Positions 3,546 through 24,611 of a DNA stretch of 24,611 nt are shown piece by piece. The stretch is from a virus. Each line of letters begins with the position of its first letter. The stretch's first letter is position 1. Made by a program: the position numbers and the translations under genes. The stretch is taken from IMG/VR virus record IMGVR_UViG_3300006224_000037, positions 1-24,611 of that record. One strand, 5' to 3'. The notes below the pieces were generated by a model that was not told the DNA's origin, did no database searches, and worked only from the letters and a program-made list of their open reading frames with translations.

Positions 3546-4043
3546 TTACGGTTCGCCCATGAGCAGGTAGTGGACTCCGAAGTTGAGGGCCGTGATGATG
3601 AGGGCCATGAGGATGTAGCCGACCTTGGAGCCGACCATCCACATCAGCCAGACTTGCTTCGACTCCTCGCGCTCCTTGCGGTAGTCCTTGCTCTCCTTGT
3701 CATCCTTGCGTCGCGGCTTGGCTACAGAGGCGACGTAGGCAGCGTGCGTCTCATGGTGCTCGGTCGTCGACCGCCTGACCGCCTCGCTGATAGCGTTCTC
3801 GATGACGTGCGGGCAGTTGTCCTCGGTGCGCGCGATCTTGTCCTCCACCTTCTGGATGCGGGAGTCGCGTACCGACGCTTCTTTGAGGTGCTTGTTGACG
3901 ATGCCGACCACCTCGTCGTGCTTCTCGTCCATGTCGTCAGCGAGCCCCTGGAGCGCCTCGAGAAGGTCGAGCGGCTTCGGCCCGCCGTTCTCGGCGGTGC
4001 GCCTGAGAATGTCGTCCTTGGCCTTCTCGAAGTGGTCGGCCAT
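3546..4043 (-). CDS. coiled-coil protein with C-terminal membrane helix (XhlA/holin-accessory-like), 165 aa
   Basis: The N-terminal two thirds are highly charged and helical (residues about 5-75 and 85-130), with heptad-like spacing in GLADDMDEKHDEVVGIVNKH and SRIQKVEDKIARTED that suggests a coiled coil. A single hydrophobic segment lies at about 140-160 (SKVGYILMALIITALNFGVH). This order, soluble coiled coil then C-terminal anchor, resembles XhlA-type hemolysin/holin-associated proteins of Gram-positive phages, though it is about twice their usual length. Its position directly after the tail genes and before the lysis genes fits. The ATG (4041-4043) overlaps the preceding TAA by one base. 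No sequence-specific motif confirms the assignment. Confidence 0.5.
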   Translation of the reverse strand: MADHFEKAKDDILRRTAENGGPKPLDLLEALQGLADDMDEKHDEVVGIVNKHLKEASVRDSRIQKVEDKIARTEDNCPHVIENAISEAVRRSTTEHHETHAAYVASVAKPRRKDDKESKDYRKEREESKQVWLMWMVGSKVGYILMALIITALNFGVHYLLMGEP

Positions 4044-5770
4044 TACTTCTTGCTCCTCCAGCCGCGCCGGCGGTGCTTGGCGAGCTTGATCGTCCTGATG
4101 GCGCCGGCGGCCTCGAGTTGCTCGATGAGCGCGTCGGCCCCGAGGCCGAGTTCGAGATCCACCGTCTCGCTATCGACATCGACGTGCGAGCGCACCACGT
4201 AGAGCGGCCCGCAGAGCGACTGCTCGCACCACACCCAGTCGCCGCCCCTGATGTAGGGCACCGGCCTCCACTCCGAGGGCGTGTCCCAGCGGTGGACTTC
4301 AAGCTGCTTCAGTTGACAGGTGCCGCTCGAGAGTCCGGTGCCGAGGTGGCGGGCCAGCCGGTCGGCGTTCCTGCCGGCGGCCTCGACGGAGTAGTTGTGG
4401 CCGCTGAAATCGACCGCAAGGACGCGCGCCGTGGTGCCCATGAAGGGCGAACCCTGGCCCCAGCCGGGAGTCTTGGGACGGATCACCGTGTCGGGGAAGC
4501 CGGCAGGGTAGTTGCTGCGCCCGAGGCGCCCGTACTGGAAGCGCAGCGCCTTGTAGTTGCCCTCCTCGTCGGGATGCTGACGCACGTCCCAGACCGTCCC
4601 CGGCTCGGTGGCGTCGATGGCGTAGCAGTTGTCGAGCACCTGGATGGAGGTCGGGTCGGTGAGCAGCGGTCTGGCAACGAAGCGGAACTTGGAGCCGGCG
4701 CTGTAGTAGCTGAACCAGCCCCACTCGACCAGCACCGAAGCCTGCTGGGCGATCGTGTTCATGGCGCTCACGGGATCGGTCATCGGGCGGGCGACGAGGC
4801 TCTGGAGGACGCTGCCCACGGTCGAGGTCAGTTCGCTGTCGTGGAGGTCGATGAACTGGGCGATGGCGAGCAGCGCCTCATCGACGGTCTTCTCGTTTGT
4901 GCTCGTGTAAAGCTCGACGTTGTCGATGCTGACGAAGCGGTCGGCGGTGACCGTCTGACCTTTGCTGTTCGTCGTCCATAGCTGGAGCGTGATGTAGCCG
5001 GGGTTGTCGCCAACGCCACCTACGGGCTCGTCAAACGGATATCCGTTGAGGACGGTGCCGGCGTCCCAGGTGTGGATCTCGTTGTACGCCGAGTCGGCAG
5101 GGTTGCGCTCGACCGTGTAGTCCGTAGACCACGCCAGCCGCGCCCTCATGTTCTCCTTCAGGTTGCAGGTGATGTTGCCCCTGATGCGCTTGACACCGTT
5201 CATCAGGCCGGTGGGCTTCTTCATGTAGGTGGCGCCCTCGTAGAGCAGGTAGCCGATCATCGCCGCCCGCGGCGTGTCGTCGGGGCCGCGCGGCACCTTG
5301 GTGCCGTCCTCGGCGCGGATCTCGATGACGTCGCTGATGTCGATCGAGGCCCACTTGCCGTTGCGCTTGTTCTCGAACCACTGGTCAGGGTCTGAGTCGG
5401 TGAAGACGAAGCCGCAGTCCTGGCGCCAGCGGGCGACCTCGAGGACGCCGCCGCACTCGATGCCGAGCACCTTCTTCTCGCCGGCGTAGCCGGTGCGCGG
5501 ATCGTTGATGATGAAGCCCTTGTAAAGCTGCGTCGTGACGGCGTCGAGGGTGTGCGTCACATCGATGGTGGCGCCGACCTTGAGTTCCGTCCACTGGGAG
5601 CGCGGGCTGAACGGGTCAGCGGGATCCATCCAGAACGAGGCCGCGCCGTCACCCTGGTTCGTGCTGTCGAACTCGAGCCCGTGGACGACGTCACGGCGCT
5701 CGACGCCGCCGATCTTGACCGAGAGGCCGCCGTCCTTGAGGCCGACGTAGTTGGTGCCGTGGATGCTCAC
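4043..5770 (-). CDS. minor tail protein, probably hub-like, 575 aa
   Basis: The 575-aa protein lies in the tail-tip block after the large fibre. Its start (SVKIGGVERRDVVHGLEF) and its C-terminal segment (IRGGDWVWCEQSLCGPLYVV then VDVDSETVDLELGLGADAL) match the general layout of siphophage hub or tail-associated proteins. There, an N-terminal beta domain and a C-terminal coordinate-transform-like beta domain flank a variable middle. The centre (residues about 180-280) contains a beta-rich insert (ITLQLWTTNSKGQTVTADRF, VSIDNVELYT) resembling a carbohydrate-binding jelly roll. Start is GTG at 5768-5770, overlapping the 48-aa gene as GTGA. The end is basic (KHRRRGWRSKK). No peptidase motif was seen. 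The hub label is inference from position and shape. Confidence 0.6.
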   Translation of the reverse strand: MSIHGTNYVGLKDGGLSVKIGGVERRDVVHGLEFDSTNQGDGAASFWMDPADPFSPRSQWTELKVGATIDVTHTLDAVTTQLYKGFIINDPRTGYAGEKKVLGIECGGVLEVARWRQDCGFVFTDSDPDQWFENKRNGKWASIDISDVIEIRAEDGTKVPRGPDDTPRAAMIGYLLYEGATYMKKPTGLMNGVKRIRGNITCNLKENMRARLAWSTDYTVERNPADSAYNEIHTWDAGTVLNGYPFDEPVGGVGDNPGYITLQLWTTNSKGQTVTADRFVSIDNVELYTSTNEKTVDEALLAIAQFIDLHDSELTSTVGSVLQSLVARPMTDPVSAMNTIAQQASVLVEWGWFSYYSAGSKFRFVARPLLTDPTSIQVLDNCYAIDATEPGTVWDVRQHPDEEGNYKALRFQYGRLGRSNYPAGFPDTVIRPKTPGWGQGSPFMGTTARVLAVDFSGHNYSVEAAGRNADRLARHLGTGLSSGTCQLKQLEVHRWDTPSEWRPVPYIRGGDWVWCEQSLCGPLYVVRSHVDVDSETVDLELGLGADALIEQLEAAGAIRTIKLAKHRRRGWRSKK

Positions 5771-5913
5771 TTGGCGTCCTTGGGCCTCTCTGCGTCGGCC
5801 ACCATCAGCTTGGTCTGCGCCTCTTCGAGGTCTACCGAGAGGGCGGCGTTCTGGACGGTCAGGTCAGCGATGGTCTTCTTCAAGATGTCGATGACCTTCA
5901 TCGCATCAGCCAT
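5767..5913 (-). CDS. 48-aa coiled-coil protein between fibre and hub genes
   Basis: The product MADAMKVIDILKKTIADLTV, continuing QNAALSVDLEEAQTKLMVAD and a charged end, is a single amphipathic helix with hydrophobic residues at heptad positions (I8, I10, L11, I15, L18, V20, L25, V27, L29, L36), so a short parallel coiled coil is likely. The ATG (5911-5913) comes 3 bases after the fibre stop codon, and its TGA overlaps the GTG start of the hub-like gene. It may be a trimerising or chaperone-like partner of the fibre, but only its position suggests this. It is too short for any family call. Confidence 0.55.
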   Translation of the reverse strand: MADAMKVIDILKKTIADLTVQNAALSVDLEEAQTKLMVADAERPKDAK

Positions 5914-5916
5914 GTC

Positions 5917-8900
5917 TTAGCTCCCCAGCGTCATGGTCACGTAGTACCACGTCGAGCCGTTCCGCAGATACAGCCTCGGCGTCGTGTCAGGGCCGAAGTA
6001 CATCTTCCAGCGGCTGCCGACCGTGTCTTTGTCCTGAATCCAGATGCCGTCATCGGAAGTACCGCTCGACCAGTTGTCTCCCGGCTTCAATGCGCCGTAC
6101 GTCTTGACAGTAGTGGTGTCCGCGTCTATGTCAACGCCTATAGTTTCTGAGTTGTTGCCCAGCCAGACACGGTTGGCTCCAGCATCCATGAGCAGATATG
6201 GGTTACTGGTAGAGCCAAGCTTTATTTCTGCGGTCTGAGTCCCGATTAGTTCGATGTAATCGGACTGCGACTTCACCCTTGTGACACCACTCGTGTAGCC
6301 GATTAGCGAAAGGTTCGCTGAAAGCCCGCTCGTATATACGATGGGGCCGCTCAGTGTGAGATACGCTTCCGAAGTTTGCGAGTCGGTGACTATCGTCCCT
6401 TGAGTATCCTCTGAAGCGTGTCCGGTGTAGAAGTCAATCTGACTTCTGTTCGCCGTGAGAATCTCGATGCGCTCGCCGCTCGTCTCGGTCTTGAAGATGC
6501 CGCCAGTGATTGTCTGGCCGTTGATAGTCCCGCCGTCGAGCACGTCGCAGGAGATGCCGGTCGCGTCTAGATGCTCCGTCGTGATGGTGCCGTCAACGAT
6601 GAGTTCCCCGAGAAGCCTGCGGCGCAGGAACATCTCGTCCACGTAGAGGTAGTTCGCGGAGCCGATATCGGTCGTCTCAAGCTGAATCTGGATGTAGGCC
6701 GCGCCGTCCGCTCCGACTGTCGCTGGGATGTCGTACCACGGGTTGTCGCTGCCGTCCTTGACCTTGAAGATGGTCGTCCCGTAGCTCGCCGCCGTGACAT
6801 CGTCAGTGGCGACCGTCTCGATGACCGTAGACTTGTCCTGCTTGTAGCAGAGCAGCTTGACGCGCCCCGAGCCGACCGCGCTGCCGAGGCGGGCGCGGCA
6901 CTCGAAGTAGTAGCTCTCGTCGGGGAGCACCGGGATGAACGGCGTCAGGATGGCGCTCGTCGTGCCCGTGGTCACGCCGATGAGGCGGCGGCACTTGCTG
7001 CCCGCGTAGGCGTTGGTGGTCGTCACGCAGCGGAACTCGTAGTCGCTCGCCGTCGAGGTCGTGTCGCGGTTGCCTGGGTCAAGCTCGCTGTTCGGGTTCG
7101 GCATCAGGTTGTCGAAGGAGCCGATGAACATGCTGCGCGACATCAGGGAGTCGGCGGCAATCTCCGTCGCCCCGATGGCGCCGGCGGCGATCATCCCGGC
7201 GGTGATGCTGTTGCCGATGATGGTGTTGCCGCTGATGACGCCGCTCATCTCGCCGGCATCGACCATCGGTGACCATGCGTCGGCCTCCAGCGACCGCTTC
7301 GTGTTCCAGTGATGGACGAGATCGGTGGCGTAGTAGCCCTCGCCGGTCGGCCCTACCTTGAAGTTCTGCACAATCTGAGCGAGCGTCAGGGCGGCGCTGT
7401 AGACGCGCACGCAGGCGATGTCGCCGTCCCAGTATCCACCACCGGCGCCGACGCCGTGTCGCCCGATGAGACTCGTGTCGGTAGCGTTGAAGGTGCCGCC
7501 CGCCACGGTGTCGGAGTCGGCCAGCACGCCGTCCATGTAGACCTTCTGCGTCGAGCCGTCACAGGTCGCGACGTAGTGGTGCCAGTTGCCGTCGTCGCAG
7601 CCCCAGTCGCCGCTCGGCATCGAGGTCACGGTGGCAGAGGAGTCCTTCTGGATGGTGACGGGACGCAGGCCGCTGGAGGTGCCGAGGCCGCAATACTGCG
7701 TCCCTGAATCCCAACCGTGCCAGATGATGTAGCCGGTATGGGCACAGTCGGTCGTATTACGCGCCCAACCCTCCAGCGTGTAGACCTTGTCGTTCGTCTC
7801 AGTGATAGCCGTGAGGTCTACATGGTCGTCAACGTAGTCGAAGGCGAGGCAGTACGGGTCTGCCCCGGTGCCGGTGCCCTTCCAGCCGCTCGCGGTGGTG
7901 TAGGCGAAGCCGTCGAGGGTGCCGTTGTTGGTGCCGACGAGGTCGTACCACGTACCCTTGTTGGTGTGCGTGTTCGTGTTCGGCCCGCCGCCGCTGTTGC
8001 GGTAGAGCCTCCGGTCGGTGGTCAGGAAGACCATCGTCCCGACTGGGAACTCTTCAGCGGGTGGCGTCTCGGGCAGGGTAGGCAGCGTGTCCACCACGAC
8101 CGGTGGCCTGATACCGGCGGCGAACATCTTCATCGAGTTGATGGCCTCTTCGGCGATCTCGTCGGCCACCGTCATCAGGGCGACACCGGAGACGATGTTG
8201 CTCATCGCGGAGCGGTTGCCGAAGACGTCCACCGTCTTGACGCCGTAGTACTTGGTGCCGTCCGCGTAGTCCTGCTTGATGGTCATCACGGTCGCTCCGG
8301 TGACGGCGATGACTATGGTCGGCGTGGGTGTAGCGCCGCCGTAGACCTCGTAGGTCACGGGGCTGGCCGAGGCGACCTCGTCCCAGAACAAGGTGACGTG
8401 GCCGATGCCGGGGACGATACGCAGGTTGGTCGGCGTGGCGAGGTAGGTGAAATCGTTGCCAGCGCCAGGGTCAGTGGCCGTACCGGAGGGACTGCTGACG
8501 AGGATATCGACGGTATTGTTGGCGACCGGCCCTTCGGGTGCGTAGGCGCGGATCGTCTCGTCACTGAGGACGGTGAAGGCGGCGTCGTAGGACACGACGG
8601 GAGAGCGAGTGTTGAAGGTGACCGAGTTCGCGGTCGCGAAGTAGTCGCCCGTGATGGTGACGATGGTGTTCACCGTGCCGCCCGTGGGCGAGATGCTGGT
8701 GACGACCGGGACGTCCACCTCGGGGTAGGTGAAGTCGTTGGCCGTGCCGGGGTCGGCGCTGCGCCCGTAGGAGTTCTCGACATCGACCTCGACCTCGCCG
8801 CCACCGGGTGGGGCGATTGCCGTGACTTGGGTGTCGGAGTCGATGGTGAACGAGGGTGAGGGCACGTCACCGAACCAGACCACGAAGGTGGTCGCGAACT

Positions 8901-9276
8901 TCGTCCCGGTGATGACGACGCTGTCACCACCGCGCCCGTCCTCGTAGGCACTTTGGGTCGGGACGATGCCCGTGACCGTGGGAGCAGAACCTCCGGTGCC
9001 GCCGGGGCCGCCGATGTAGGTCGCGTAGTCCCAGCCCGAGGTCAGCGTCCCGGTGCCGTCGCCGTTCTTGACCGTGACGTTGAGGTCGGTGCCGGTGCCT
9101 GACGGGACGTAGGCGATGAGATCCGTCTCGGAGACGACGACGAAGTTGGTGCCGACGTCGTAGGTGCCGAACTTGACCTCGTAGACGTCCTCGCCGAAGT
9201 TGCTCCCGGTGATGACGACTTGGGTGCCGGGAGGGCCACTGCCGGGGTTGATGCCGGTGACGGTCGGAGTAGCCAT
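5917..9276 (-). CDS. large tail fibre/receptor-binding protein with IPT/TIG, FN3-like and LamG domains, 1119 aa
   Basis: Domains in order: three IPT/TIG Ig-like domains at about residues 1-87, 99-188 and 190-282, each with the PTVTGI(N/V)P start and VVITGxxF core; an FN3-like domain at about 283-370 (PTNLRIVPGIGHVTLFWDEV); a linker with FPVGTMVFLTTDRRLYRNSG; a LamG/concanavalin-like domain at about 433-655 (YVDDHVDLTAI, DDGNWHHYVATCDGSTQKVY, GDIACVRVYSAALT); a spacer of short repeats of the type found near host-specificity protein ends (ISGNTIIGNSITAGMIAAGA); a second jelly-roll-like domain at about 720-880 (YYFECRARLGS, YIQIQLETTDIGSANYLYVD); and a C-terminal beta-helix-like region. It would form the adhesin of the tail tip and bind surface polysaccharide. 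ATG 9274-9276 overlaps the preceding stop (TGATG). The C-terminal coding DNA is clearly lower in GC than its neighbours. Confidence 0.82.
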   Translation of the reverse strand: MATPTVTGINPGSGPPGTQVVITGSNFGEDVYEVKFGTYDVGTNFVVVSETDLIAYVPSGTGTDLNVTVKNGDGTGTLTSGWDYATYIGGPGGTGGSAPTVTGIVPTQSAYEDGRGGDSVVITGTKFATTFVVWFGDVPSPSFTIDSDTQVTAIAPPGGGEVEVDVENSYGRSADPGTANDFTYPEVDVPVVTSISPTGGTVNTIVTITGDYFATANSVTFNTRSPVVSYDAAFTVLSDETIRAYAPEGPVANNTVDILVSSPSGTATDPGAGNDFTYLATPTNLRIVPGIGHVTLFWDEVASASPVTYEVYGGATPTPTIVIAVTGATVMTIKQDYADGTKYYGVKTVDVFGNRSAMSNIVSGVALMTVADEIAEEAINSMKMFAAGIRPPVVVDTLPTLPETPPAEEFPVGTMVFLTTDRRLYRNSGGGPNTNTHTNKGTWYDLVGTNNGTLDGFAYTTASGWKGTGTGADPYCLAFDYVDDHVDLTAITETNDKVYTLEGWARNTTDCAHTGYIIWHGWDSGTQYCGLGTSSGLRPVTIQKDSSATVTSMPSGDWGCDDGNWHHYVATCDGSTQKVYMDGVLADSDTVAGGTFNATDTSLIGRHGVGAGGGYWDGDIACVRVYSAALTLAQIVQNFKVGPTGEGYYATDLVHHWNTKRSLEADAWSPMVDAGEMSGVISGNTIIGNSITAGMIAAGAIGATEIAADSLMSRSMFIGSFDNLMPNPNSELDPGNRDTTSTASDYEFRCVTTTNAYAGSKCRRLIGVTTGTTSAILTPFIPVLPDESYYFECRARLGSAVGSGRVKLLCYKQDKSTVIETVATDDVTAASYGTTIFKVKDGSDNPWYDIPATVGADGAAYIQIQLETTDIGSANYLYVDEMFLRRRLLGELIVDGTITTEHLDATGISCDVLDGGTINGQTITGGIFKTETSGERIEILTANRSQIDFYTGHASEDTQGTIVTDSQTSEAYLTLSGPIVYTSGLSANLSLIGYTSGVTRVKSQSDYIELIGTQTAEIKLGSTSNPYLLMDAGANRVWLGNNSETIGVDIDADTTTVKTYGALKPGDNWSSGTSDDGIWIQDKDTVGSRWKMYFGPDTTPRLYLRNGSTWYYVTMTLGS

Positions 9277-18123: not shown

Positions 18124-18353
18124 GTCGCCTTCTTCTTACGGGCCGTGGTCTTCTTCTTGGCCGGCGCCCGACGAGCCCGCGGGGCCGCGGCCGGGGCCGG
18201 TTCCGGCACCGCCTCGGCCACGGGCTCCGCAGGCACCGGCGGCTCGGAAGCCGCCGGTGCCAGAGCGTCGCGGATCTCCACGAGCACGTCGAAGATGGCG
18301 ACGAGGACTTCGTCCTTGTCGTCACGCGGGACGATGTCGTGAGGATGCCTCAT
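18120..18353 (-). CDS. small protein with Pro/Ala linker and Lys-rich tail, 77 aa
   Basis: Residues 1-34 (MRHPHDIVPRDDKDEVLVAI and on) form an acidic/hydrophobic helix. Residues about 35-55 are Pro/Ala/Glu-rich, and residues 56-77 are strongly basic (RARRAPAKKKTTARKKKAT), like the C-terminal tails of bacterial H1-like proteins. ATG 18351-18353 overlaps the major capsid stop (TGATG) and the stop overlaps the adaptor start (ATGA). It has no domain I can name. A DNA- or scaffold-binding tail inside the capsid is a reasonable guess given its place between capsid and connector genes, but nothing shows it directly. Confidence 0.6.
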   Translation of the reverse strand: MRHPHDIVPRDDKDEVLVAIFDVLVEIRDALAPAASEPPVPAEPVAEAVPEPAPAAAPRARRAPAKKKTTARKKKAT

Positions 18354-19540
18354 CAGGCACCAGAGCCGTTCGAGGCGACGGTCGCGTACGGGGCCACCTG
18401 GGTGAGCCCGAAGACGTGACGGATGCGGTACTCCTGGGTGTCCGTCTCGAAGGACTCGGCCACCGTGCCGCCGCCGACGCGCGAGGCGTTCGGCGTCTTG
18501 ACGAACAACTCGGGGCGCTCGTGGCCGGCGAGGTAGTCCATCTGGATGGCGGGACGGGCCGCGCCGGTGGAGGCGAACAGGAACCAGCAGGTGGTCGCGT
18601 TGCTGGTGGCGCACATCGAGATGTACGGATCGACCGCGAGGCTGATGCGGTTGGCGATCCAGTTCGCCACGCGGATCTGGTCGGCCGCGTTGTAGGCGCC
18701 GCCGCCGGTGGCCACGGTGACCTCGGTGGCGTTGAGGATGTTGCGCGCCGTGACCTCGAGCGCCGGCGGGACGACGAGGGTGACCGCGTCGATGATCAGC
18801 GGGAACCCGTCGTAGTCGGTGTGCTTGGACATGACGAGGAACGCCTGAGCGAGGTTGGCGAGCGAGAGCGCGGGGTTGTTGGCCGACGCGCCGGCGTGCG
18901 TGTTCACGATGTTGTCGTACGTGTCGCTGTAGAGCGTCGCGTTGAAGCCGGCGCTCGCGGTGCCCACGTACATCTTGCTGGCGGCCAGAGCCTCGGTGCG
19001 GCGGGCCGCCTCGACCAGACGCTGTGGAAGCTCGCGGAGCGCGCCGAGGTCGTCGTTGATGATGCTCTCCCACGAGATGCCGAAACGGCCACCGTACTTG
19101 GCGACCTGACGGGTGATCGGCGTCTCCTCGACGGGGCCACGCTCAGGATACTCAGCGCGCTCCCCGACCGCGTCGAGCACCGAGCCCATGCCCTCGATGC
19201 CGAGCCACTTGGCCTGACGGAAATCGCGGACGGTGCCGGTCTTGATGTACTGCTGCCAAGCGGGCATCGTGGTGCCCCACTGGGCCATGAGCGAACGGTC
19301 GAGCACGTCTCCCATGAGGTACGGGAAGTCGGCGGTGACCATCGCCTCCTTCAACTGGTAGTAGGCGTGGTTGCTGCCCGCGCCGGCGCGGTCGAGCGTC
19401 TCCATGAAGGAGGCGATGATCTCGTCGGAGTACCGCTTGCGCGCGAACCCGCCCTCGCGGCCGAGAACGGTCATCAAGTCACTGCCGCTGGCGGTGGACT
19501 CGACCGTCTCTTCGACCTGGGTGATGACTTCGTCTGCCAT
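18353..19540 (-). CDS. major capsid protein (Mu gpT-like, HK97 fold), 395 aa
   Basis: The 395-aa protein has the pattern of gpT-like major head subunits: WQQYIKTGTVRDFRQAKWLG near residues 95-115, an early protective arm (EYPERGPVEETPITRQVAKY) with GRFGISWESIINDDLGALRE at about 150-172, a central TASAGFNATLYSDTYDNI, the IIDAVTLVVPPALEVTARNI segment, and a late EYRIRHVFGLTQVAPYATVA. This is the HK97-type fold's main shell subunit. The acidic N-terminal 30 residues could be removed by the protease encoded upstream. ATG 19538-19540 follows an excellent ribosome binding site (AGGAGGAAAGGC), consistent with high expression. Confidence 0.87.
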   Translation of the reverse strand: MADEVITQVEETVESTASGSDLMTVLGREGGFARKRYSDEIIASFMETLDRAGAGSNHAYYQLKEAMVTADFPYLMGDVLDRSLMAQWGTTMPAWQQYIKTGTVRDFRQAKWLGIEGMGSVLDAVGERAEYPERGPVEETPITRQVAKYGGRFGISWESIINDDLGALRELPQRLVEAARRTEALAASKMYVGTASAGFNATLYSDTYDNIVNTHAGASANNPALSLANLAQAFLVMSKHTDYDGFPLIIDAVTLVVPPALEVTARNILNATEVTVATGGGAYNAADQIRVANWIANRISLAVDPYISMCATSNATTCWFLFASTGAARPAIQMDYLAGHERPELFVKTPNASRVGGGTVAESFETDTQEYRIRHVFGLTQVAPYATVASNGSGA

Positions 19541-19558
19541 GCCTTTCCTCCTCTCGGC

Positions 19559-20788
19559 TTAGTAGCCGAGCTTGACCCTGATCTTGCGCGAGCCGGGAGC
19601 GGTGGTCACGGTGCCGCCGATGCGCGCGGTGCCGGTGACGACGATGTCCCCGTCGTAGGCCAGGGTGATGGTTCCCGAGTTGTTGGTCGCGGTGAAGCCG
19701 ACGAGGCCATAGACCTTGTCGTTGATGCAGGAGCAGAGTTCGTCGGCGTCCTGCGTGTCCGTCCCCGCGATCGAGAAGGTGCGGGTGGACTTGGTGGTCG
19801 TGTTGGTGTGCGCGGTGAAGGTGATGCCGTTGATGATCACGGTCTGGCTGTTCGTGACCGTGCCCAGCGTGATCTTGCGGTCGTCGGCCTTCTCGAGGGC
19901 GCGGCCGAAGAAGGTCGCTCCTTCGTGCAGGTTGAGCGTCGAAGGCGTCGTCCAGTAGACACTGGCACCCTCGGAGATCGGCATCGTGGAGGTGGCGCCG
20001 TGATCGACCGTGATGGTCGCCCCAGAGGCGGTGCCGGTGACGGCGCTGATCGTCTCGCTCGACTTGAGCGTGATGTCGTTGTCGTTCACGCTGGCGATGA
20101 CGTTCGGAGGCGGCGCGAGCGTCGAGATCGTGATGCCGGCGCCGCTCTTGCTGATGACCGGGGCCGGATAGGCGGCGGTCGGGTAGAGCGTGAACGGCTG
20201 GATGAGGATCTCGGCCGCCGAACTCTGCGTCACCGTGTAGCCCGTGCCGATGCCGTAGGTGCCATCGGTCAGACAGGTCACCAGTTCGGTGGCGTCCTGG
20301 GTGTCGGTGCCGGCGATGCTGAACTCGCGGTTGGCGACCGTGGTGGTCGTGCCGTGAGCGGTGAAGGTCAGGCCGGCGACGGTCACGGTCTGGCCGGCGG
20401 TGACGCCCGAGAGGCTCAGGTACTGACCGCCGTTGATGGCCTTGGCCAGCAGCAGCGCGTCGGCGGCGTCGGTGCCGGCGATGGAGTAGTTGCGCGTTGA
20501 CCACGTCGTGGTCGAGGTGGTCGCCGTGTAGGTGATCGCGTTGAAGATCAGCGTCTGGGTGTTGGTCACCGAGGCCAGCGCGAGGGTGACGGCGTCGCAG
20601 GCGCTGTCTACCGTGAGGTCGCAGACGCCATGGCGCAGCACCGAGGCGATCTCGGTGCCGGTGGATCCGGTTGCCGTGAGGGTCACGCCGGGGATCTTGC
20701 CGACGCAGACCGGGGTGCGGGCCGCGACACTGGCGCCCACCGTGAGCGGGATGATCCACCCACGCTTGTATGCTTCGTTGGTCGCCAT
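19559..20788 (-). CDS. enlarged DUF2190-type capsid decoration protein with three internal repeats, 409 aa
   Basis: The N-terminus (residues 1-63, MATNEAYKRGWIIPLTVGAS and on) and the split C-terminal parts (272-303 and 386-409) match the 118-aa protein encoded next to it, so the core is the same small DUF2190/parvulin-like decoration fold. Three copies of one beta module are inserted: about 66-125, 126-200 and 304-385. Each contains (V/L)xxxxxTFTAHTTTTT and FSIAGTDTQDA-type segments, the last two being identical over FSIAGTDTQDA (156-166 and 338-348). Such modules usually form Ig-like surface domains. ATG 20786-20788 has AGGAGGTAGGAG upstream. It probably coats the outside of the capsid. The insert content is unusually large for the family. 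Confidence 0.72.
   Translation of the reverse strand: MATNEAYKRGWIIPLTVGASVAARTPVCVGKIPGVTLTATGSTGTEIASVLRHGVCDLTVDSACDAVTLALASVTNTQTLIFNAITYTATTSTTTWSTRNYSIAGTDAADALLLAKAINGGQYLSLSGVTAGQTVTVAGLTFTAHGTTTTVANREFSIAGTDTQDATELVTCLTDGTYGIGTGYTVTQSSAAEILIQPFTLYPTAAYPAPVISKSGAGITISTLAPPPNVIASVNDNDITLKSSETISAVTGTASGATITVDHGATSTMPISEGASVYWTTPSTLNLHEGATFFGRALEKADDRKITLGTVTNSQTVIINGITFTAHTNTTTKSTRTFSIAGTDTQDADELCSCINDKVYGLVGFTATNNSGTITLAYDGDIVVTGTARIGGTVTTAPGSRKIRVKLGY
19634..20593 (-). repeat. three diverged beta-module repeats inside the decoration gene
   Basis: Copies lie at about 20414-20593, 20189-20413 and 19634-19879. They are recognised from their protein translation (ThrPheThrAlaHis and SerIleAlaGlyThrAsp segments); the outer two units share the longest identical stretch. 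The span includes the core decoration segment between copies 2 and 3. Boundaries are approximate. Confidence 0.6.
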
Positions 20789-20805
20789 CTCCTACCTCCT
20801 TCGAC

Positions 20806-21162
20806 TCAGTAGCCGACGAGGCACTTGATGGTCGCGGACGTGCCGCTCGCGCTGATGGCCTCCAGGGCGTAGCCCCAGCGGGTGCCGCCCGTGTTGACGT
20901 CGAGGACGGGCGAAGCATTGGTGCCCGACCAGTAGATGATGTCGCCTTGGGCGATGGTGGTGCTGCCACCGTTGTCCGCGTGGACGGAGAGCTTGAAGAC
21001 GCCCTCGGTGGCGACCGTGGCGACCTGGGTGCCCGAAGCAGCCGTTGCGGTCAGCGTGACTCCCGGCACCTTGCCCACCAACACGGGGTTGCGGGCGGCG
21101 ACGGAAGCACCCACGGTCAGCGGGATGTAAGCCGCCTCTTTGTAGACCTCGTTCGTAGCCAC
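20806..21162 (-). CDS. DUF2190-type capsid decoration protein, 118 aa
   Basis: This compact beta protein fits the DUF2190 family: it begins ATNEVYKEAAYIPLTVGASV, contains the ARNPVLVGKVPGVTLTATAA strand, GVFKLSVHADNGGSTTIAQG, the DIIYWSG motif, then GYALEAISASGTSATIKCLV. Such proteins lie next to capsid genes and usually bind the shell as trimers. It starts with GTG (21160-21162) behind AGGAGGTACAA. Its two halves align with the first and last parts of the 409-aa neighbour, which shows that the two genes arose by duplication. It is the uninserted form. Confidence 0.75.
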   Translation of the reverse strand: MATNEVYKEAAYIPLTVGASVAARNPVLVGKVPGVTLTATAASGTQVATVATEGVFKLSVHADNGGSTTIAQGDIIYWSGTNASPVLDVNTGGTRWGYALEAISASGTSATIKCLVGY

Positions 21163-21171
21163 TTGTACCTC

Positions 21172-21624
21172 CTAGCGCCCTTCGACGGCGCGCTTGGCGG
21201 CCTCGCCGTCGAGCCGGAAGAAGCTGCTCAGGCTCTTGGTGAGGCTTTCCTTGACGTCGGTCTTCTCGGCCGTGGGGGCGATGGTGCCCTGATCGGTCAC
21301 CTTGCCCTGCGGTGTCACGGCCTCGATGTACTCGGCCTCGACCTTGACCTCGGCCTCGACCGTCTCCTTGAGCGCCTCGATGTCGAGTTCGCCCTCGTTC
21401 ATCGGCGCGTCCATCGCCAGCTTGCTGACGATGCGCGTCTTCGCGGCGGCCGGGAGTTCGACGTTGTCGAGCATCCCCTTGATGGCCTCCTGGGCCTTGA
21501 GGATCGCCAAGGCGCCCTCGGCGCGCTCGGCACGGGTCTTGAGTTCGTCGTTGACCTTCCGGGCCTCTTCGAGTTCTGTCTCCAGGGTGGAGACGCGCTC
21601 GGTCACTTCCTCGAGTTCGGCCAT
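21172..21624 (-). CDS. probable scaffold-only product from an internal start, 150 aa
   Basis: Within the protease gene the in-frame ATG at 21622-21624 (MAELEEVTERVSTLETELEE) is preceded by AAGGAG with 8 bases of spacing. It begins exactly at the coiled-coil scaffold region, after the Ser/Thr linker. This is the lambda C/Nu3 arrangement, where scaffold is made from an internal start in the same frame as the protease. The product would be acidic, almost all helical, and removed from the procapsid later. The site is seen directly; its use is inferred. Confidence 0.5.
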   Translation of the reverse strand: MAELEEVTERVSTLETELEEARKVNDELKTRAERAEGALAILKAQEAIKGMLDNVELPAAAKTRIVSKLAMDAPMNEGELDIEALKETVEAEVKVEAEYIEAVTPQGKVTDQGTIAPTAEKTDVKESLTKSLSSFFRLDGEAAKRAVEGR

Positions 21625-22317
21625 GCCGTCCTCTCCTTCCTTGGACTGAGTCTCCGACACTGCGGAGGCGTCGTAATGCACCGTCATCGTCTGGGCGGCG
21701 CTGCTGCTGGTCGTCGTTGTCGTTGCGTCGTCCATCGCTTCCGAAGTTGATACCACACTGGAAGGCTCGCTCTGGAACGTGCCGGCCTGACGCAGGCTCT
21801 CCATGACGGCGAGCACCTGACCGCCGGCTCCCGGCTTGGTGACGAAGTCCACCGAGTGCCCCTTGACGAGGCTCTTGATGACCTTGCCGCTCTTGCCCTC
21901 GGCCTCGCCGGCCTCGTACTGGCCGCTGGCGCGGATGGAGACGCCGATGTAGGGCGCCAGCGCCTCGATCGTGTCCTTCCACTGCGGCAGGACGCTGGCC
22001 TTGGCGTAGAGGCCGGGGCCAGCCTTGCCCTGCTCCTGGTACACCGGGGTCGAGATGGTCACCGCGGCCAAGTCGCGCACGCTGCGCTCGGGGCGTTCCT
22101 TCATCTCGCTCTCGGTGGGATGGTCGAGGTACATGTGGGTGCCCGCCGGCCAGACGTTCGGCCCGTCGCGCTCGAGCACCTCCTTGGGGTAGTAGCCGCT
22201 GGCTCCCCACCCCGGCTGGATGAGGCGCATCTCGATGGTGCCGTCGCGCGCCACGGCGCGCTCGGCCAGCGGGATCACCTCCGATTCGAGATCTGGGTCA
22301 CGCAGTTCGTCAGTCAC
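21172..22317 (-). CDS. capsid maturation protease fused to scaffold, 381 aa
   Basis: Residues about 20-180 have the shape of a phage prohead serine protease: MYLDHPTESEMKERPERSVR (His61 and His66 near the active site), LYAKASVLPQWKDTIEALAP, YIGVSIRASGQ with Ser127 as a likely nucleophile, and GHSVDFVTKPGAGGQ, a common end of the fold. A Ser/Thr-rich linker (about 195-230) follows, then a long charged coiled coil (about 232-290, ELEEVTERVSTLETELEEAR) and a helical tail, typical of scaffold. The linker and Met232 carry a strong internal ribosome binding site. Start is GTG 22315-22317 behind AAGGAGAGCAGC, overlapping the upstream stop by 8 bases. The protease would remove the scaffold and the capsid N-terminal region during maturation. 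Confidence 0.77.
   Translation of the reverse strand: MTDELRDPDLESEVIPLAERAVARDGTIEMRLIQPGWGASGYYPKEVLERDGPNVWPAGTHMYLDHPTESEMKERPERSVRDLAAVTISTPVYQEQGKAGPGLYAKASVLPQWKDTIEALAPYIGVSIRASGQYEAGEAEGKSGKVIKSLVKGHSVDFVTKPGAGGQVLAVMESLRQAGTFQSEPSSVVSTSEAMDDATTTTTSSSAAQTMTVHYDASAVSETQSKEGEDGMAELEEVTERVSTLETELEEARKVNDELKTRAERAEGALAILKAQEAIKGMLDNVELPAAAKTRIVSKLAMDAPMNEGELDIEALKETVEAEVKVEAEYIEAVTPQGKVTDQGTIAPTAEKTDVKESLTKSLSSFFRLDGEAAKRAVEGR
21633..21638 (-). promoter_or_regulatory. internal ribosome binding site AAGGAG for scaffold
   Basis: AAGGAG on the minus strand, 8 bases before an in-frame ATG (21622-21624). It lies inside the protease coding sequence and marks the likely scaffold-only start. 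Confidence 0.5.
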
Positions 22318-23500: not shown

Positions 23501-24611
23501 CGGCTACCTCCCACTCACTTTCCAGGCCGCCCAGCGTGATGGCGATCTCGGTTTCGGGCTCGAGCCACTCGACCTCGAGGCCGAAGTGGACGTGCCAGTC
23601 GCTGGCGGCGAGTTCGCATTTCCAGAGGTCGGCCCGCGTCAGCCCGACGTGGACGACGACACTCGTCGTGACGTTGACACAGTACGCGACTGCGACGGCC
23701 GTGCTGGAACCTGTCGCCTGCTTGATGGCGGTGAAGGCCGACTCGATGGCGACGCAGGCGCTCGCCTCGGCGGTGGCGCTACGGGTACGCGCCGCCGTGG
23801 CATCAGAGGCGACGACGGCGGCGACGGCGGCGCTGGCGAGCCGGATGCGCTGGCCGCTCGCGGCGATCGCCACGGCGGCGACCGGGGTGGCGCTGGCGAG
23901 GCGCAGGCGCTTGGCTGTAGCGGCGCTGCTGGTGACCGCGACGATCTCGCCGTAGCCCGTGCCGAGGCCGGTCTTGGTGCCGGCGGCGGTGGCGTGGGCG
24001 ACTGCGGCGACGTCGGCCGTGCGGCGCCCGATGAGGGTCTTGTTCGCGGTGGCGACGGCGACCGCCGCGACACTGGCGGTCGCCCCGCGGATGCGCTTCG
24101 CGGTGGCCGCCACGGCGACGGTGGCAACGGGGCTGGCGGTCGCATTGGACAGGCCGCTTCCCGTGGCTGTCGCCGCGACGGCGGCGACGATGTTACCCGT
24201 GCCGGCGGCGGTCTTGCGACCGGAGGCGGCACTGACGGCGACGGCAGCCACCTCAGAGAAGCCGTTGCCGGTGCCCTGACGCTGACCGGCGGCGAGCGCG
24301 GCGGCGACGGCGGCCGTGTCGGCGCTGGCGGCGCGCGTGCGCTTCGCCGTGGCCGTGGCGTCCGCGACGGCGGCGACCTCACTCGTGCGGCTGCGGATCC
24401 TCGAGCCGCTGGCCGTGGCGACCGCGACGGCGACCGCCTCGCTGCTGCGGGCGCGGGTGCGAACTGCCGCGGAGTCGCTGACGGCGACGGCAGCGACCTC
24501 GGAGGTGCGCTGGCGCGTACGGACGGCGGTGCTCGCCGAGTCGGCCACCGCGGCCACATCGGCGGTGCCGTCCTTGGTCTGGCCGCTGAACTTGGAGCCA
24601 TCGGCGTCGCT
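23487..24611 (-). CDS. Ala/Val-rich tandem-repeat protein (partial, N-terminus off the right edge)
   Basis: The frame is open from the window edge to the TGA at 23487-23489 with no stop, so at least 374 residues are present and the true start lies outside. Most of it consists of about 14 imperfect repeats of about 20 residues. Each has a VAAVAVATA-like stretch, then a basic R-x-R or K-R-x-R cluster and a short Ala/Ser/Thr turn (for example SEVAAVADATATAKRTRAAS). Some units carry a Gly-rich variant (GTGNGF, GLGTGYGE). The last 65 residues are different: an acidic beta-type domain (LTRADLWKCELAASDWHVHF, then VEWLEPETEIAITLGGLESE). It lies next to the head genes. I do not recognise the family. 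A filament-like surface protein is possible. Confidence 0.65.
   Translation of the reverse strand, partial: SDADGSKFSGQTKDGTADVAAVADSASTAVRTRQRTSEVAAVAVSDSAAVRTRARSSEAVAVAVATASGSRIRSRTSEVAAVADATATAKRTRAASADTAAVAAALAAGQRQGTGNGFSEVAAVAVSAASGRKTAAGTGNIVAAVAATATGSGLSNATASPVATVAVAATAKRIRGATASVAAVAVATANKTLIGRRTADVAAVAHATAAGTKTGLGTGYGEIVAVTSSAATAKRLRLASATPVAAVAIAASGQRIRLASAAVAAVVASDATAARTRSATAEASACVAIESAFTAIKQATGSSTAVAVAYCVNVTTSVVVHVGLTRADLWKCELAASDWHVHFGLEVEWLEPETEIAITLGGLESEWEVADGSD
23690..24611 (-). repeat. about 60-bp imperfect tandem coding repeat
   Basis: The repeat-bearing DNA is very GC-rich and shows a roughly 60-bp period (57-69 bp), built around GCGGCGACGG-type strings on the plus strand. 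The units vary in length and sequence, so they are diverged repeats inside a gene, not a recent slippage tract. Ends are approximate. Confidence 0.7.

Follow-up and report, generated by a model that had tools for sequence, protein, structure and literature searches.

The stretch of DNA analyzed here, referred to as the window, is the whole 24,611-base IMG/VR virus record IMGVR_UViG_3300006224_000037. On its minus strand, four genes follow one another in the order of transcription: a head maturation protease/scaffold-type gene (positions 21172-22317; phrog_15531, 4.4e-29), a gene for a 118-aa protein (20806-21162), a gene for a 409-aa protein (19559-20788), and the gene for the major capsid protein (18353-19540; PF25209 Phage_capsid_4, 1.2e-43). 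The protease/scaffold-type gene lies directly upstream of the pair under study and the capsid gene directly downstream, with gaps of 9, 17, and 18 bases between protease and short gene, short and long gene, and long and capsid gene, respectively. The 118-aa frame starts with GTG and the 409-aa frame with ATG, and the short, long, and capsid genes each have their own AGGAGG-like ribosome-binding site. Both open reading frames described in an earlier note on this DNA thus exist and share an N-terminus, in which 40 of 63 residues are identical. The capsid protein and the short protein (window positions 18353-21162) are related to their counterparts in the archaeal methanogen virus Blf4, with identities of 35.5% and 38.1%, respectively, each over 95% of the query; the term 'decoration' is absent from the main text of the Blf4 paper in its available portion (PMC8540584). 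Elsewhere in the window, a 60-base unit is repeated in tandem in 1.9 copies (23815-23925) within an open frame (23639-24601) that found no match in PHROGs, and a 1119-aa protein encoded at 5917-9276 has a local match to the virion structural protein family phrog_8510.

The 118-aa protein is an ordinary cement protein of a tailed phage. It scored 49.8 bits against PF09956 (Phage_cement_2), for which the curated cut-off is 24, and is a member by Pfam's criterion; it also matched the head decoration family phrog_122 (2e-10). The AlphaFold2 model predicted from a 16-row alignment had a mean pLDDT of 84.8 (the remaining four models had 64-68) and is all beta, as is the cement fold of the trimeric capsid-stabilization proteins. 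Foldseek matches of this model in the PDB were weak (best E 1.1e-3), with phage capsid-decoration entries in the top rows. VIA-align, which served as a second look at the Foldseek matches for both the short and the long model, aligned the short model with the phiCD508 decoration protein (9gay_C; Z 10.1, 98 residues, 2.4 A), the HFTV1 CSP (8qsy_JI; Z 9.4, 104 residues), and the proteins of Pam3 (Z 8.6), Pa193 (8.1), E217 (7.9), Sf11 (7.6), and TW1 (7.2). When solved structures were searched by sequence, no meaningful match was found for the short or the long protein. The predicted fold is the one of PF09956 and the trimeric capsid-stabilization proteins, namely phiCD508 gp48, HFTV1 gp18 CSP, the TW1 protein, and the base of phi29 gp8.5. 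According to the available parts of the papers on phiCD508 and HFTV1, the cement protein of the former and the CSP of the latter form trimers on the capsid (PMC11948020, PMC12494034). These parts name one such protein for each of the two viruses, whereas the window encodes two adjoining paralogues, one of which bears domains in two loops.

The 409-aa protein is homologous to the 118-aa protein. When a profile was made exclusively from 16 short forms (alignment A5), it matched residues 1-71 of the 409-aa protein with 73.4 bits (7.8e-24). A second, collinear core piece was found at residues 253-301 with a weak score of 6.4 bits, which was matched by 2 of 200 shuffles, and across the seven 409-416-aa forms the second core segment scored 1.1-6.7 bits. 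In a 318-aa relative (L020), profile positions 1-65 aligned at residues 1-66 (3.9e-23) and positions 65-104 at residues 167-206 (28.7 bits, 5.6e-10; none of 200 shuffles). Because the two core pieces of L020 abut in the short-form profile, the first insert (insert 1) is placed at short-form position ~65. The second (insert 2) lies just before the last core strand, which ends in VKLGY; this stretch is too short to score, and the insert was placed by reading the sequences. The two insertion points proposed in the earlier note are supported, and so is its view of a decoration protein pair with the short form as the uninserted outgroup. The C-terminal 'KxxxGY' that the note had ascribed to both proteins fits the short form (KCLVGY) but not the long one (RVKLGY).

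In the long form, the core is therefore read as three segments on the minus strand: residues 1-65 (20594-20788), residues 265-303 (19880-19996), and residues 397-409 ending in RVKLGY (19562-19600, excluding the stop codon at 19559-19561), the last being assigned by eye against the KCLVGY end of the short form. With E values of up to 1 allowed, the long form matched no Pfam family, so the PF09956 cut-off was not reached, and nothing credible was found in Pfam, NCBIfam, or PHROGs; on sequence grounds we class it as an insert-bearing paralogue of a cement protein, not as a member of PF09956 by Pfam's rule. Its AlphaFold2 model, predicted from an 8-row alignment, had a mean pLDDT of 60.7, and was good only over residues ~81-230 and fair over 311-380. 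The alignment retained the partial sequence L011 and left out the 317/318-aa relatives L020 and L022, of which MAFFT had split the single domain; single-domain fragments were also tried, were mostly drawn to repeat 3 or split, and were not used. Since pLDDT falls below 50 over residues 1-67, 244-288, and 290-302, leaving the core unfolded, the shared core is argued from the sequence together with the short-form model. Matches of the long model were weak in the PDB (Foldseek; best E 5.4e-3), and a BFVD search gave 13 matches below 1e-3, most with a large rmsd.

Three copies of one domain of ~94 aa are inserted into this core. A domain profile built from 14 other proteins, which share only this domain with the long form, matched residues 67-131 (49.4 bits), 124-186 (78.0 bits), and 305-393 (101.4 bits), in agreement with the three repeats of the earlier note. 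No credible family in Pfam or NCBIfam covers the domain. That the inserts are separate domains, as had been supposed, is supported by the single occurrence of the domain in unrelated phage proteins, which belong to at least four other families: phrog_28483 (L012, L013, L014, L040, and L056), the head-tail adaptor phrog_442 (L012 and L042), the major tail protein phrog_885 (L048), and the tail protein phrog_457 (L049 and L054). A further carrier, L018, matches phrog_28344, and the carriers L044, L016, and L017 had no match in PHROGs. In all three loci examined (L012, L014, and L056), the phrog_28483-like gene lies directly 3' of a PF05065 capsid gene. L012 and L014 match the phrog_28483 profile ahead of the insert and L013 beyond it, but in L040 and L056 the alignment runs through the insertion point; it is suggestive only that phrog_28483 would represent a second uninserted outgroup. 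Two nearby genes carry the domain in L012 (5728-6471 and 6764-7627, one phrog_28483-like and one phrog_442 head-tail adaptor) and in L042 (2984-3727 and 4364-5236, again phrog_28483-like and phrog_442, the first placed by alignment only), and this pattern suggests movement of the domain within a genome. In L048, three genes carry it (62-871, 3652-4341, and 5506-6642), one being that of the major tail protein phrog_885.

Flagellin_IN (PF07196) was considered as the identity of the inserted domain and was set aside, being unsupported by sequence and weak in fold likeness. The family was not listed for five isolated domains at E up to 10, a search in which the HMMER filters drop most weak matches. 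VIA-align gave FliD and flagellin rows against repeats 1, 2, and 3 at Z 4.1-6.7, and as a Z below 8 may mean only a common arrangement, we claim no homology to flagellin or FliD.

Repeat 3 (C; residues 304-396, positions 19601-19879; 101.4 bits) occupies insert 2, and the two remaining repeats share insert 1. The earlier note had set repeats 1 and 2 side by side there, and the profile, intermediate-form, and predicted-structure evidence points instead to nesting: repeat 2 (A2; residues 122-226, positions 20111-20425) probably splits repeat 1 (A1) into a first half (residues 66-121, positions 20426-20593; domain profile positions 1-64) and a second half (residues 227-264, positions 19997-20110; a weak match to profile positions 60-93). 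In all seven complete 409-416-aa forms, the match of repeat 1 stops at profile position 53-64. The second half of the domain was found again, weakly, at ~228-261 in the window, L003, L002, L025, and L026 (-0.5 to 5.3 bits), while in L008 the extra domain match among those listed lies elsewhere, at 204-239. When residues 227-266 were spliced behind the first half of repeat 1, the score rose by 9.9-18.5 bits in all seven forms, a gain equalled by 0-4 of 200 shuffles, and with the second half added the columns of repeat 1 aligned by hhalign rose from 56 to 75.

The splice test tells what segment 227-266 is and not whose it is, because the segment can also be joined to the first half of repeat 2, with a gain of ~14-21 bits that in most forms is at least as large as the gain behind repeat 1. 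Residues 181-226, assigned to the second half of repeat 2, gained nothing over shuffles in five of the seven forms. Both observations would suit an un-nested insert 1. On that reading, a partial tandem duplication left repeat 1 as half a domain, and repeat 2 is a full domain interrupted by 46 additional residues (181-226), with 227-264 as its own second half. We hold this arrangement to be possible but doubtful, as the predicted structure and the domain tree speak against it. In the long-form model, four strands and a helix (66-119) are followed by a complete repeat 2 (121-224; block pLDDT 73-92) and then by four strands (230-262), and repeat 2 is closed by strands from 184-224 at good confidence. 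For the strands at 230-262, the block pLDDT falls from 68 to 41, and confidence over 244-264 is low. Repeat 2 aligned as one block (121-226) with the sheath protein of A-1(L) (Z 10.3, 89 residues), and solved sheath domains aligned to 120-226 with 82-89 residues. Had a partial tandem duplication taken place, repeats 1 and 2 should be neighbors in the tree, and they are not.

Two further observations favor the nested arrangement. The single domain at the same insertion point in L020 and L022 has a second half that matched residues 227-266 in all six comparisons (0-1 of 500 shuffles), whereas against 181-226 it was no better than shuffles in five of six, the sixth being equalled by 17 of 500 shuffles. 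In addition, 15 of the 50 VIA-align matches listed span the model from residues 60-64 to 262-265 with one solved domain and 73-85 aligned residues, including those of Milano (Z 7.2; 85 residues, 62-264), Agrobacterium phage 7-7-1 (Z 6.9), and Pseudomonas aeruginosa FliD (Z 5.8). Such matches look as a split repeat 1 would, but this is indirect, the Z scores being middling and the first and last residues alone being given. Altogether, we regard the nesting, as well as the separate ancestry of repeat 2 considered below, as supported but not proven.

Repeats 2 and 3 share the 11 residues FSIAGTDTQDA exactly, and the earlier note took this identity as the trace of a recent copying event within the long gene. 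Its proposed check, a comparison at the DNA level, went against the proposal: the codons for the shared residues differ at 7 of 33 bases (counted by eye), including a switch between AGC and TCG for Ser, and over 51 codons the two repeats are 59% identical in amino acids and 65% in nucleotides, below the 63-86% and 67-82%, respectively, between the repeats of the window and the repeats at the same positions in other phages. FSIAGTDTQDA occurs also in L012-L015, which are unrelated proteins of other phages. A domain tree of 39 rows and 56 columns, each row a half-domain of ~51-56 residues, placed repeats 2 and 3 in different groups. Recent copying is thus contradicted by codons, identities, and tree, unless gene conversion misleads the tree and the identities, and we consider it very improbable. 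In the same tree, repeat 2 formed one clade (99/97) beside the domains of other phage proteins, and repeat 1 together with the domain of L020 and L022 at insert 1 (their A domain) grouped with repeat 3 (97/95). Since they group together, repeats 1 and 3 appear to be relatives and were probably already present when the 318- and 409-aa forms diverged. Repeat 2 looks, on this short alignment, like a separate arrival of foreign origin; alternatively, L020 and L022 may have lost it.

The best structural matches of repeat 2 are sheath-type domains. After that of A-1(L) come a PhiTE tail protein (Z 9.6) and the T7 tail protein (Z 9.0), which we take to be gp12. Sequence identity in these structural matches is only 13-19%. 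These matches are tail proteins, whereas the window pair is predicted to be of the head; the tail protein family phrog_457 carries the inserted domain of the window itself, in L049 and L054.

Relatives of the short form were found at 17 loci. The long gene stands beside the short gene at nine of them (L019, L010, and L020-L026; IMG/VR contigs), the sequence examined contains no domain-bearing gene at seven (L027-L029 and L031-L034), and at the remaining one (L030) the contig ends beside the short gene. A PF25209 capsid gene follows at all five of the short-only loci that this check covered (L027-L029, L031, and L034). As the uninserted form is the widespread one, we take it as ancestral. Two of the nine pair-bearing contigs (L020 and L022) encode a long form of 317 or 318 aa with exactly one domain per insertion point. 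In the core tree (25 rows, 120 columns), the long forms made up one group with support of 98/97. The short genes of L025 (6001-6366) and L026 (2556-2921) did not join the group formed by the short genes of the other pair-bearing loci, although their long genes fell inside the long clade, as if the short genes had been exchanged or had evolved unevenly. A tblastn search for long-form relatives among 50,697 phage records found none, and a genome collection of 84,980 species gave two loci only, both with single-domain proteins: L035, which aligns with the phrog_28483-like set, and L036, seen only as a domain match. Because the annotated collections gave these single-domain proteins only, we tie the long form to no host or cultured phage.

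We propose that the two genes encode head-decoration proteins, the long one derived from a duplicated cement gene of which two loops took up domains, a third domain being nested in the first; we put the probability of this reading at roughly 0.6. A small beta-rich domain would have entered after the fifth strand of the core (short-form position ~65) and a related domain immediately ahead of the final strand. The 409-aa lineage would then have acquired a third domain, of other origin, in the loop that follows the helix of the first domain, producing a nested (Russian-doll) arrangement, and the 118-, 318-, and 409-aa forms of present-day relatives would preserve these steps. As to the agent, we lean slightly toward a mobile phage virion domain that invaded two loops of the duplicated cement protein, after which another lineage of this domain invaded the first insert.

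If the pair behaves like its solved relatives, the core would attach to the outer face of capsid-protein trimers. The stabilizing coat would then come from the short form. The long form would be held on the capsid by this shared core, probably in trimers of its own or in mixed trimers with the short form, and would add surface arms that point outward. The inserts would serve attachment or the surface properties of the particle rather than the stability of the shell, adhesion or the control of particle aggregation being their likeliest use. It is unlikely, in our judgment, that the long paralogue, rather than coating the whole head, serves the virion at a different site or in a different capacity, such as a portal-vertex collar, a turret, or an assembly factor. 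Such a role would suit two observations: strong conservation between the long and the short form is confined to the N-terminal segment, with a diverged middle core segment, and the inserted domain is present in tail and connector proteins. On the other hand, in the nine contigs read, the long gene comes immediately after the short cement gene and is followed by a capsid-type gene, and the second core segment is well kept in L020 and L022.

A division of labor like that proposed for the window pair is described for T4 Hoc and Sf14 gp20, in which a plain stabilizing coat, made of a trimeric or small cement protein, is accompanied by a second decoration protein displaying extra domains as Ig-like head fibers (available parts of PMC10385173, PMC11821841). 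As far as these parts tell, the two decoration proteins of Sf14 have unrelated capsid-binding folds, whereas the window pair shares one core by sequence; the extra domains of T4 Hoc and Sf14 gp20 are Ig-like, whereas the inserts of the window sit in loops. Among Pfam families at E up to 1, no Ig family matched the long form, and Hoc-like Ig domains were not found in it. In the open-access PMC literature, we found no paralogous decoration or cement pair with domain inserts named. For the nesting, a parallel is offered by the outer D2/D3 domains of flagellin and FliD, in which a middle domain splits the surrounding ones and several are structurally homologous to each other, according to the available part of PMC8306008; the arrangement resembles insert 1, the fold likeness being weak.

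The relatives of the pair form a natural series, with no insert, with one domain per site, and with a nested domain. From it one can read at which loops a widespread phage cement fold accepts entire folded domains. Such knowledge helps to explain how surface functions are gained by phage heads and is of use for capsid display in harmless laboratory phages. The series also draws attention to a small domain, as yet without a name, that is found in proteins of the head, connector, and tail and behaves comparably to the Ig-like domains of phages. If the proposal is true, a nested decoration arm would have been built by the same stepwise logic as the outer domains of flagellin and FliD.
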